NCBI GenBank assembly: GCA_004195615.1
Contig: PSPW01000008.1
Location: 1-48,124, forward strand
DNA from: Methanobacteriota archaeon
GTDB taxonomy: Archaea; Thermoplasmatota; Poseidoniia; Poseidoniales; Thalassarchaeaceae
Direction of reading: 5' to 3'
DNA: 48,124 nt
Shown here: piece by piece, positions 11,919 through 35,578 of the stretch
Layout of the letters: every line of letters begins with the position of its first letter
How positions within the stretch are numbered: the stretch's first letter is position 1
Position numbers and translations under genes: made by a program
The notes under the pieces: generated by a model
The model's database searches: none
Told to the model about the DNA's origin: nothing
Seen by the model: the letters and a program-made list of their open reading frames with translations, nothing else

Positions 11919-12800
11919 ATGAGAAGGAGGGGGCAGAGGCTTGGTCGAGGAATCGACAGAGTTGCAAAACGACTTCTAAAGTACAGAGTTTTCTCAATTC
12001 CAGCAAGAGTGTTGTCTAACTCATGGTTAGCTTGGAGTTTCGTTTCAAGATTAGATAGAGTTCGTGCTAGAAGGAAGCGCGACAGAGTTACCAGAAGTGA
12101 GTTGCCCCGACATATCTCCATCATCATGGACGGCAACCGAAGATTTGCCTGGAGTCTGAGTCTGGGTACGGAGATTGGCCATAGGCATGGTAAGGAGAAG
12201 TTGAGGGAAGTAATGGACTGGGTAATTGATCTGAGGATACCTTATCTAACAGTTTATGCGCTTTCAACCGAGAACCTATCAAGTAGGGACTCAGATGAGT
12301 TGGAGGCTTTATTCGACCTATACGTTGCCGGCCTAGATGAAATCTCGGAAGACGAGAGAATCCACTCCATGGGAGTCAGGGTCAGGGTTATCGGCAGGAC
12401 TGAAGAGCTTCCGAATAGGGTTAATCAGGCAATCGAGAATGCGCAAGAGAAAACCAGTGGCTACTCCAACTTCACTTTCACTGTATGCCTTGCATACGGA
12501 GGAAGGGAAGAGATAGTCGACGCTGTGAAGGGGATTGCCTCTGATCACGCTTCTGGGGCTCTATCTCTGGAACAGATTGACACTACTGAGATTTCCAATC
12601 GCCTGTACGATGCGGGTATCCCAGATCCAGATTTGGTAATCAGAACTAGTGGAGAGGAGCGGGTCTCGAACTTCCTACTTTGGCAGATTGCATACTCTGA
12701 GCTATACTTCACTGATGTCCATTGGCCTTCTTTCACGAAGTCGGATTTGTATGATGCGATAGAAACCTATCAGATGAGGAGGAGGAGATACGGTGAATGA
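11919..12800 (+). CDS. uppS: Cis-prenyltransferase (undecaprenyl/polyprenyl diphosphate synthase)
   Basis: Condenses isopentenyl diphosphate onto an allylic primer in cis to build the long polyprenyl (dolichol-type) carrier used for glycan assembly. Catalytic D71 lies in IIMDGNRRFAW. The substrate-binding stretch ALSTENLSSR, the conserved GREEIVDAV and the C-terminal RTSGEERVSNFLLWQ with AYSELYF are all present. Bacterial enzymes have GNGRWA where this has GNRRFA, the usual archaeal/eukaryal style. About 60 basic residues precede the domain and may hold the protein at the membrane. It follows the HAD gene by 47 bases and overlaps the Nudix gene by 8, so these form one unit. Confidence 0.95.
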   Translation: MRRRGQRLGRGIDRVAKRLLKYRVFSIPARVLSNSWLAWSFVSRLDRVRARRKRDRVTRSELPRHISIIMDGNRRFAWSLSLGTEIGHRHGKEKLREVMDWVIDLRIPYLTVYALSTENLSSRDSDELEALFDLYVAGLDEISEDERIHSMGVRVRVIGRTEELPNRVNQAIENAQEKTSGYSNFTFTVCLAYGGREEIVDAVKGIASDHASGALSLEQIDTTEISNRLYDAGIPDPDLVIRTSGEERVSNFLLWQIAYSELYFTDVHWPSFTKSDLYDAIETYQMRRRRYGE

Positions 12801-13206
12801 ACGTTTTCGGAACCCTTCGCTTGCGGTGGACGCGATTTGTCTCAGAAGAGATCTTGGAGAGGTTCTCCTAATCAGAAGAGGGTTTTCTCCATGGAAAGGG
12901 AAGCTGGCATTCCCTGGAGGGTTCGTCGACTATGGTGAGGATCCTGAGACCGCTGCATTACGAGAACTTCTGGAAGAAACCGGGGTAGAAGGTTGGGGCC
13001 CCCGGGTGTATGCAGTGAAAGGTAGACCAGAGAGGGATCCGCGAAAACACGTAGTATCAATCTTCTACATAGTTCAGGTTGACGAAGAATCAGCACCCGA
13101 GGCTGGAGATGATGCTGCAGAAGCAGAATGGGTGAAGCTGGATAGCATTGTTTCAGGAGATGTGGCAGGGGACCATTTCGAAGTCATTGAGCAACTACGC
13201 ATGTAA
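12793..13206 (+). CDS. Nudix hydrolase, ADP-ribose pyrophosphatase-like
   Basis: A compact 137-aa Nudix hydrolase. The complete Nudix box runs from GGFVDYGED through RELLEETGV, matching GX5EX7REUXEEXGU with all metal-binding glutamates. These enzymes cleave nucleoside diphosphates linked to another moiety. The PGG before the box and the PRKHVVSIFYIV segment resemble the archaeal ADP-ribose pyrophosphatase group, though the substrate cannot be fixed. It starts with GTG preceded by GGAGGAG, inside the last eight bases of uppS, so translation is probably coupled. The intact box here is a useful comparison for the degraded Nudix domain of Spt5 further along. Confidence 0.9.
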   Translation: MNERFRNPSLAVDAICLRRDLGEVLLIRRGFSPWKGKLAFPGGFVDYGEDPETAALRELLEETGVEGWGPRVYAVKGRPERDPRKHVVSIFYIVQVDEESAPEAGDDAAEAEWVKLDSIVSGDVAGDHFEVIEQLRM

Positions 13207-33984: not shown

Positions 33985-34075
33985 TTTCATTTCAAATTGA
34001 ATGGGAATAGAACTTCTGCTTCCCGTCGTCCTTAAATGGAATCTGTGGGTCGTCGTGGTGCTTCTAGGTGGTAAC

Positions 34076-34339
34076 ATGGCGGTTGAGAACTCCAAGGTAG
34101 GTCCGATTGAAGAGATTGCGCAGTCTTGGCAAGACGAGATTGAAGGCCGTGTGAAGGGGCTTCAAACGGGTTCCTACGCCAGAATTCTGAAAATGGCTAA
34201 AAAGCCCTCGAAGCAAGAATTCAGGCAGACTGTGATAGTTTGTGGAATTGGAATGTTCGTGCTTGGAGCGATTGGTTTCGTTATTCTAGCGCTAATGGTC
34301 AACGTTTTCCCCCCATTCTTCCAATGGCTGATAGGTTGA
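34076..34339 (+). CDS. secE: Protein translocase subunit SecE (Sec61-gamma)
   Basis: About 87 residues with one C-terminal membrane helix, part of the SecYEG protein-conducting channel. The family signature GSYARILKMAKKPSKQEF appears just before the helix, which has VIVCGIGMFVLGAIGFVI. I choose ATG 34076, preceded by AGGTGGTAAC; the longer frame from 34001 would add 25 residues not seen in the family. The stop lies 10 bases before the spt5 ATG, which has the same AGGTGGTAA sequence ahead of it. Confidence 0.92.
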   Translation: MAVENSKVGPIEEIAQSWQDEIEGRVKGLQTGSYARILKMAKKPSKQEFRQTVIVCGIGMFVLGAIGFVILALMVNVFPPFFQWLIG

Positions 34340-34349
34340 GGTGGTAATA

Positions 34350-35216
34350 ATGTCAGAAGCTTATACAGTATATCTCCGAAGCGGAGAGAAGGTTCTGTTG
34401 ATGCAGCGATCGGATGAGGTCGCTGACTTCTCTGGAGCATGGGATGGAATTTATGGAGTAGGTAATCCCGATGACCACGATTCTGTAGTCTCAAGGGTTG
34501 CAGAGTGTACTGGAATAAGCCCAGAAAAGATGGAATTGGTTCGTTCCGGAACGGCCAGAGGACTTGCCTATGGGAATCGTCTTAATGACGTGACTCCGAT
34601 ACTCTTCGTCACCGAGGAGACGGAGATTATCCCAAGCGCATTATACAAGAACAGCGAATGGGTTGACCCCGGAGTGATTCAGACCAAAGACTACGCCACC
34701 CCTCAACTCAAGGAGATGTATGGCGATGTGGCTTCATATCTGTACATACTCAAGACCTCAATCGGTCAAGAACAAAACGTAGCTGGTGAAATCAGGGCCA
34801 GATTATCTGGAACCGGTTCTCTCCAGGATATCCAAGACAAGATCTTCGGAGTCCTCAGTCCACACTACATGAAGGGTTTCATCTTCATTGAGGCTACGGC
34901 AATGCACCATGTCCAGAAGTTGATTGGACGAGTTGGAGTAGGAGTAACCCCTCTAAAGAACTGCAGCAAGGTGTTGGGCGGAGCGGCTCCTCTTGAGGAC
35001 GTCCTTCCCTATCTAGAGCCGAAAGCAGCTACTTCTGGCATTGAGGAAGGCTGTATCGTCGAGATCTCAGGGGGGGCATTCAGAGGGCAGGCAGCAAGAG
35101 TGACCAGAGTTGCCGAAACCAAGGAAGAGGTTACTGTGGAGCTGTTCGAAGCGGCTGTACCAGTTGCGCTTACTGTTCGGGCTGACCAAGTGAGGGTCAC
35201 TCAGAGGGTGGAGTGA
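34350..35216 (+). CDS. spt5: Transcription elongation factor Spt5 with an N-terminal Nudix-like domain
   Basis: Residues 131-212 form the NGN domain (YILKTSIGQEQNVAGEI, MKGFIFIEA) and 232-288 the KOW domain (EEGCIVEISGGAFRGQAARV, KEEVTVELFEAAVPVALTVR), a standard archaeal Spt5 that clamps RNA polymerase and pairs with Spt4. In front is an extra domain of about 128 residues that reads like a Nudix fold: VYLRSGEKVLLMQRS, DFSGAWDGIYGVGNP, SRVAECTGI, then SEWVDPG. In the Nudix box the canonical REUXEE is replaced by SRVAEC, so catalysis is probably lost. The start at ATG 34350 has GAGGTGG upstream. Usual archaeal Spt5 is about 150 aa; this one is 288. Confidence 0.93.
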   Translation: MSEAYTVYLRSGEKVLLMQRSDEVADFSGAWDGIYGVGNPDDHDSVVSRVAECTGISPEKMELVRSGTARGLAYGNRLNDVTPILFVTEETEIIPSALYKNSEWVDPGVIQTKDYATPQLKEMYGDVASYLYILKTSIGQEQNVAGEIRARLSGTGSLQDIQDKIFGVLSPHYMKGFIFIEATAMHHVQKLIGRVGVGVTPLKNCSKVLGGAAPLEDVLPYLEPKAATSGIEEGCIVEISGGAFRGQAARVTRVAETKEEVTVELFEAAVPVALTVRADQVRVTQRVE

Positions 35217-35299: not shown

Positions 35300-35578
35300 A
35301 TGTCAGCACGCAACGAAACCCCCCACAAAGTGATTCAAACACTGGGGAAGAAAAAGTGCAATGGATCATGGGAAGCCTCTACGGAAAACCTGACCATGGA
35401 TCAGGTCAAGGAAATAGCTGAGGATCAGAAGGCCCGACTCACTGGAAAGTCAATTTACGCGCGATGCCGAGAAGTAATGGGTACTTGTGTTTCTATGCGA
35501 GTTCGAGTCGAAGGCATGGAGCCAAAGGTGGCTCTGAACGCTATGAGAGAGGGGGAGTTTAGCGAACATTTCAGCTAA
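35300..35578 (+). CDS. rpl11: Ribosomal protein L11 (uL11) reduced to its C-terminal RNA-binding domain
   Basis: The 92 residues align with only the second half of L11. TPHKVIQTLGKKKCNGSWEA corresponds to the PPxSxLIKKxxGIxKGS linker, then ENLTMDQVKEIAE and the CTD core GTCVSMRVRVEGMEP, which binds the GTPase-centre rRNA. The N-terminal domain of about 65 residues is missing. The start has GAGGT 8 bases upstream and an in-frame TAA lies at 35285-35287; the 83-base gap after spt5 is too short to hide the missing part. It is in the normal L11 place between spt5 and L1. In other ribosomes the lost half contacts translation factors. Confidence 0.82.
   Translation: MSARNETPHKVIQTLGKKKCNGSWEASTENLTMDQVKEIAEDQKARLTGKSIYARCREVMGTCVSMRVRVEGMEPKVALNAMREGEFSEHFS

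Follow-up and report, generated by a model that had tools for sequence, protein, structure and literature searches.

Archaeal Spt5 is usually drawn with two domains, and in the known Spt4/5 structures the NGN domain grips the polymerase clamp; the usual setting of the archaeal gene has FtsZ and SecE upstream and the ribosomal proteins L11, L1, and L10 downstream. In the sections of PMC13289920 drawn on here, Spt5/NusG is described as the sole transcription elongation factor present in all domains of life. Among proteins with a Nudix-type domain, NrtR uses ADPR as the effector of its Nudix-like domain (according to excerpts of PMC10311068), and CFIm25, having lost the box Glu residues, shows no hydrolysis yet binds nucleotides and RNA (according to excerpts of PMC3695940).

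The window (the whole stretch of DNA analyzed, 48,124 nucleotides) contains at 34350-35216, on the + strand, a single uninterrupted frame of 288 amino acids in which a Nudix-fold domain (residues 1 to about 128) leads through a short helix into an archaeal Spt5 part with NGN and KOW. The gene is preceded by those of FtsZ and SecE and followed by those of L11, L1, and L10. The features referred to below are as follows.

34001..34339, + strand: SecE, the upstream neighbor (Pfam PF00584)
34338..34343, + strand: GAGGTG, which probably serves the fused gene as its ribosome-binding site, read in the sequence ahead of the ATG at 34350
34350..34733, + strand: Nudix-fold N-terminal domain of Spt5, residues 1-128 (AlphaFold2 and Foldseek, profile relatives)
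34455..34517, + strand: Nudix box in degenerate form, residues 36-56 (seen by aligning 100 distinct fused proteins and 20 separate relatives)
34494-34496, + strand: codon of R49, which replaces the Glu found in 20/20 separate relatives examined
34740..34928, + strand: Spt5 NGN domain, residues 131-193 (Pfam PF03439, E 1.6e-9)
35055..35141, + strand: Spt5 KOW motif, residues 236-264 (Pfam KOW, E 0.052, below the cut-off; inside the TIGR00405 match and the alignment with Spt5 of the PDB)
35300..35578, + strand: ribosomal protein L11, C-terminal RNA-binding domain only, the downstream neighbor (Pfam PF00298 only)

An ad hoc pattern, applied without a chance control to 80 related loci, found an SD-like motif ahead of the Nudix start in 60 of them, and in none ahead of the codon that precedes YGDV shortly before NGN.

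The Spt5 part turned out to be complete from residue 131, as the earlier note had claimed. Pfam places NGN at residues 131-193, and NCBIfam TIGR00405 covers residues 132-286 (E 4e-30, 104.7 bits versus 69.95), so that NGN is followed by KOW as in archaeal Spt5, with PF03439 above its cut-off and KOW by itself below. Residues 128-288 match archaeal Spt5 in the PDB (9bct, 3p8b, 4zn1) with an E of 3e-22 across both NGN and KOW. Most other Thermoplasmatota score higher against TIGR00405 (mostly 1e-35 to 1e-58) than do complete copies from Poseidoniales (E about 1e-24 to 1e-34), although the ranges overlap. Spt4 (PF06093) was present in all 40 Poseidoniales searched, and Spt4/5 should therefore form normally. 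A second Spt5/NusG paralogue, of 157 amino acids and without a Nudix domain, was seen in 1 of 116 Poseidoniales genomes (G266, L229:171-644; E <= 1e-15), where it adjoins a subtilase-like gene, named by reading its sequence; it could be an operon-specific elongation factor.

We then determined whether the 128 or so residues in front are, as had been proposed, a degraded Nudix domain. Single-sequence searches gave little: Pfam NUDIX matched residues 1-128 weakly and below its cut-off (E = 0.029), the full-length fused protein had no Pfam Nudix match at E <= 1, and the NCBIfam search and PDB phmmer with residues 1-128 gave nothing at E <= 1. Against PDB sequences the fused-domain profile gave an E of only 0.08, which does not decide the matter. 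The AlphaFold2 model of the domain (71 aligned sequences; pLDDT 88.2, pTM 0.83) has the strand-helix order of a Nudix domain and is the alpha/beta/alpha Nudix sandwich on whose presence the proposal had been made to depend. Foldseek returned 353 PDB matches for it at E <= 0.001, the best being 3grn (E 1.6e-7, probability 1.00), and all of the 50 listed (TM 0.58-0.80 by query) are Nudix-fold proteins, among them MutT, Ap4A hydrolases, RppH, and NrtR; IPP isomerase and the MUTYH C-terminal domain, also among the 50, we take to be of that fold.

Profile searches agree with the predicted fold. A profile of 28 fused-domain members retrieves separate Nudix genes of other Thermoplasmatota, the best per-genome E in an open frame being about 3e-16; the five such relatives that were tested match Pfam NUDIX at 1e-12 to 1e-18, and 15 of the 28 members themselves match it at E <= 1 (best, 2.3e-4). 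A chance resemblance to Nudix, which was considered, is ruled out by the fold, the profile relatives, and the tree. The full-length model is only fair (pLDDT 75.1, pTM 0.58), its PDB matches being led by Spt5/NusG chains, with Nudix proteins starting at rank 32; in it helix 120-127 runs into the NGN strand at 130-135, which implies a short linker.

The fate of the catalytic residues was followed in an alignment of 100 distinct fused proteins (130 loci, with 30 repeats dropped) and 20 of the 58 separate relatives. The box of an active Nudix hydrolase, an enzyme acting on NDP-X (box GX5EX7REUXEEXGU, with its metal-binding Glu residues) is absent from the fused domain: in the window it reads SRVAEC at residues 48-53, with E52 as the single Glu left, just as the earlier note had read it, and the loop is shortened. 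The protein at 12793-13206 of the window, to which that reading had been compared, does have an intact box (Pfam NUDIX, E 5e-26). All 20 separate relatives have Glu at positions 39, 49, 53, and 98, the last being the Glu of a DWEH motif, and 19 of them have Asp at 96. Of the 100 fused proteins, 99 carry Arg at position 49 and 81 carry Asp at position 39; Glu never occurs at position 53, which holds C, S, A, V, or T, position 98 has L, I, R, or V, and R, G, or K predominate at position 96. E52 is retained in 92, with D, Q, or S in the other 8. Two positions have become invariant in the fused form, namely, Tyr99 (100/100, versus His in 18/20 separate relatives) and Asp32 (100/100, versus Ala in 15/20), while L16, R20, W31, G36, and Gly55 are common to all rows, fused and separate. 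The alignment thus shows a fused domain that has lost the metal-binding box residues, the box Glu being kept by the separate relatives. A tree built from 15 fused and 20 separate rows unites the fused copies in a single clade (support 100/100), whose stem is long, at 2.44 changes per column; this is consistent with a single origin and rapid change. The outgroup row is very long, and the deeper branching order is not settled by this tree.

The distribution of the fusion was determined next. The full protein was matched in 58 of 60 genomes (among them the window's own), over both parts in 55 and partially in 3, and the 2 without a match are 62-63% complete. A further search of 116 Poseidoniales genomes that were at least 80% complete used a core-only query (an NGN-KOW paralogue without Nudix) and the N-domain profile. 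The Spt5 core was found in 108 of them, its main copy lying in frames of 288-382 amino acids, and the N-domain profile matched 111, including all 108 core-positive ones. By eye comparison of frame lengths and adjoining coordinates, N-domain and core share one frame in 107 of the 108; a separate or absent N-terminal frame in related genomes, which the earlier note had held to speak against its proposal, is thus confined among them to G238. There, profile positions 1-94 of the N-domain lie in a frame of 470 amino acids and the core in a separate one of 306 (G238:C19:30768-31927); this would be a frameshift or an assembly error. A split gene as the rule is ruled out by the same count. The core query missed 8 genomes. 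Fragments exist in six of these, five lying at or near a contig start (G052, G055, G057, G291, G314) and one being a short piece (G213); in G307 and G328 the core query and the N-domain profile matched neither part.

When genomes were drawn from across the phylum, the N-domain was detected in 51 of 53 Poseidoniales and, at E <= 0.01, in 58 of 143 genomes outside the order; by eye, none of these 58 has it in an Spt5 frame. Fusion elsewhere in the phylum was accordingly rejected: 18 of the 58 matches lie in frames of at least 263 amino acids, 17 of them away from the Spt5 of the same genome and the other in a genome with no Spt5 match (G121), and the remaining frames are, by eye, too short to hold both parts. 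Through its named loci, family f1 corresponds to Thalassarchaeaceae; GTDB taxonomy suggests that f2 is Poseidoniaceae, f3 Marine Group III, and the phylum Thermoplasmatota, and the sister family (f3, in the same class) is thus probably Marine Group III. In all six of its Spt5 genes that were read, the protein has only a short acidic tail and no Nudix domain. One Poseidoniales frame (G266, L221:1282-2367, start codon putative) has about 70 extra, largely acidic residues before the Nudix domain, which resemble that tail. The roughly 150 extra residues on some other Thermoplasmatota Spt5 proteins were considered as the same fusion and rejected, since the sequence read differs. The Spt5 proteins of many other Thermoplasmatota have a different N-terminal stretch of about 100-170 amino acids with a motif like APEW...APKGARYGD (L056, L058, L059, L060, L062, L063, L078, L087-L091, and L094-L099); the two tested by Pfam gave matches confined to the NGN/KOW part, and that the stretch is an Ig-like sandwich is a guess.

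That a dead Nudix domain is fused to the front of Spt5 across Poseidoniales we consider practically certain. The distribution and the tree suggest that the fusion occurred once, in the ancestor of the order.

We also compared the selection acting on the two parts. By NG86, applied to 50 ungapped loci with 128 and 91 usable pairs that share sequences between them and have a dS near 1, the median dN/dS was 0.077 for the domain (quartiles, 0.053-0.217) and 0.010 for the Spt5 core (0.005-0.047). The N-domain thus evolves about 8 times faster than the core by this median and is under purifying selection, although less constrained. Its net charge has a median of -11 (range, -19 to -5) at a pI of 4.4, whereas the core has -2 and the 20 separate relatives have -4.5. 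Such strong acidity speaks against the binding of RNA in general and would be unusual for a polyanion binder, although a local basic pocket may lie within the acidic domain; a small pocket and protein docking are both compatible with it.

The L11 encoded at 35300-35578 has 92 amino acids and is reduced to its C-terminal RNA-binding domain, and five further short L11 copies were read. The N-terminal domain of L11 is its factor-binding domain; L11_N (PF03946) was found in 0 of 25 Poseidoniales, an order-wide loss, but in all 14 controls and in 72 of the 73 other Thermoplasmatota searched. Archaeal NusA (TIGR01952; whole genomes and loci L244, L245, and L247) was matched in 0 of 20 Poseidoniales and 0 of 3 genomes of the sister family, compared with 53 of 58 genomes outside the class, and none was seen at the S12-S7 locus in G000, G037, or G062, which are 3 of 5 such stretches; a divergent NusA below the threshold is possible. 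In G000 and G037 a UbiD-like gene, named by reading its sequence, is found upstream of S12 in divergent orientation. The losses of L11_N and NusA do not track the fusion exactly and are context for it. Loss of the RNA polymerase stalk was not supported as a reason for the fusion, Rpo4 having been found, often weakly, in 17 of 20 Poseidoniales (missed in G000, G017, and G041).

Our preferred reading, to which we assign a probability of about 0.45, is that the N-domain is a pseudo-enzyme whose cleft has been re-tooled into a binding module reporting to the elongating RNA polymerase. The loss of metal ligands, the newly fixed Arg, Tyr, and Asp, and the purifying selection fit a re-tooled site better than decay: Arg49 appears to have replaced a catalytic Glu and Tyr99 the motif His, and Asp32 stands beside the invariant Trp31. 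Judging from the box register, which would put Arg49 in the cleft, these new invariants may line one pocket. Such a cleft would bind a ligand without hydrolyzing it, most likely one bearing phosphate (a nucleotide, a dinucleotide, or a single RNA end). The last Nudix helix is predicted to pass almost straight into NGN strand 1, and, NGN being the part that sits on the clamp, binding of a ligand or partner could shift the hold of Spt4/5 on the clamp or change which factors are recruited to the elongating polymerase. The earlier note had suggested a nonhydrolyzing nucleotide sensor; the loss of the catalytic motif stands, and the idea is plausible and fits the re-fixed R49, Y99, and D32, while the ligand role is only putative, the domain is strongly acidic, and docking does nearly as well. 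Spt5 as a ligand-gated elongation factor, with the dead pocket sensing a nucleotide-type signal and tuning elongation directly within a wider remodeling of gene expression (archaeal NusA undetected, the N-terminal domain of L11 absent), strikes us as speculative and, on balance, unlikely.

A dead Nudix fold can serve as a protein-protein module, for which TIRR (NUDT16L1) is the precedent, and the acidic N-domain may likewise bring chromatin, the ribosome, or a factor particular to the lineage to RNA polymerase, in place of the short acidic tail of the sister family. Protein docking of this kind explains the data nearly as well as a nucleotide sensor does. Besides the acidity itself, the tail at the same place in the sister-family genes read and the acidic stretch before the Nudix domain in G266 speak for it; the new invariants, however, include R49 at a position of the box register, which points to the cleft, and we hold docking to be a serious contender, though less likely than the preferred reading. 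A nascent-RNA binder of the CFIm25 type, partly taking over the role of the archaeal NusA-like KH protein, would have a precedent in CFIm25 down to a Lys in place of three box Glu residues in Entamoeba (according to excerpts of PMC3695940), and the lack of a TIGR01952 match in Poseidoniales and of NusA beside S12 in the three genomes read favors it. The net charge of -11 does not, and the link between NusA and the fusion is loose, since the sister family has neither a NusA match nor the Nudix domain and 5 of the 58 other genomes likewise have no NusA; we regard an RNA binder as rather improbable.

Some Nudix proteins with altered boxes remain active, and with E52 retained in most fused copies the domain might still be an enzyme that hydrolyzes a nucleotide on the polymerase through an unusual metal site. 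With Glu gone at 49, 53, and 98 and Arg fixed at box position 49, this is very unlikely. The faster change of the domain relative to the core and the out-of-frame N-domain of G238 could be taken to mean a functionless vestigial passenger or an assembly artifact, a view that is scarcely credible against a median dN/dS of 0.08, residues invariant over two families, and one frame in nearly all core-positive genomes.

Poseidoniales are among the commonest archaea of the ocean, and a third Spt5 domain, with a dead active site, has been kept across the whole order. Should the pocket of the preferred reading take up a metabolite, metabolism would directly control elongation itself in archaea; should the domain bind RNA or a partner, it would illustrate how the elongation machinery was rebuilt in a lineage in which no NusA is detected. 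The fusion had been put forward as undescribed, and its apparent novelty is supported: titles and abstract openings of the papers listed in searches on Spt5/NusG, Nudix, and Poseidoniales elongation factors hold no report of a Nudix-Spt5/NusG fusion, subscription papers being mostly outside this scope. Parts of PMC9258230 and PMC8576121 were also covered, and the word Nudix is absent from the main text of PMC13289920.

Compared with known systems, CFIm25/NUDT21 also has a Nudix fold with lost box Glu residues within an RNA-processing factor (PMC3695940, in the excerpts used), but it has no Spt5 fusion and is absent among the 50 Foldseek matches listed. Binding of UGUA RNA is a further mark of CFIm25. 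NrtR likewise uses a Nudix fold as a transcription sensor (PMC10311068, in the excerpts used) and appears among the Foldseek matches (3gz8); it pairs its Nudix-like domain with a C-terminal HTH-like domain, whereas the C-terminal part of the fused protein is NGN-KOW, which sets the latter apart from NrtR. The DWEH-type Nudix proteins of other Thermoplasmatota (L201-L220; most of about 135-180 amino acids, some in longer frames) are homologous to the fused domain over its whole length, L16, R20, W31, G36, L85, and W104 being common to all 20 examined and to the fused domain; the box Glu is retained in them, as is the DWEH motif (with its Glu in 20/20), and the fused domain has lost both. In L217:2004-2876 a DWEH-type domain is fused to an aconitase X swivel domain (PF01989), and in L211 the gene lies near a probable isopentenyl phosphate kinase (named by reading its sequence), which together hint that the intact family acts in archaeal mevalonate metabolism. 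The genes around L211 and L215, read for a clue to the ancestral substrate, gave no firm pointer to it. Archaeal Spt5 (TIGR00405; 3p8b, 4zn1, 9bct) has the same NGN and KOW, Spt4 in the same genomes, and a gene beside secE and ribosomal genes, and the Poseidoniales form differs from it by the extra Nudix domain in front.
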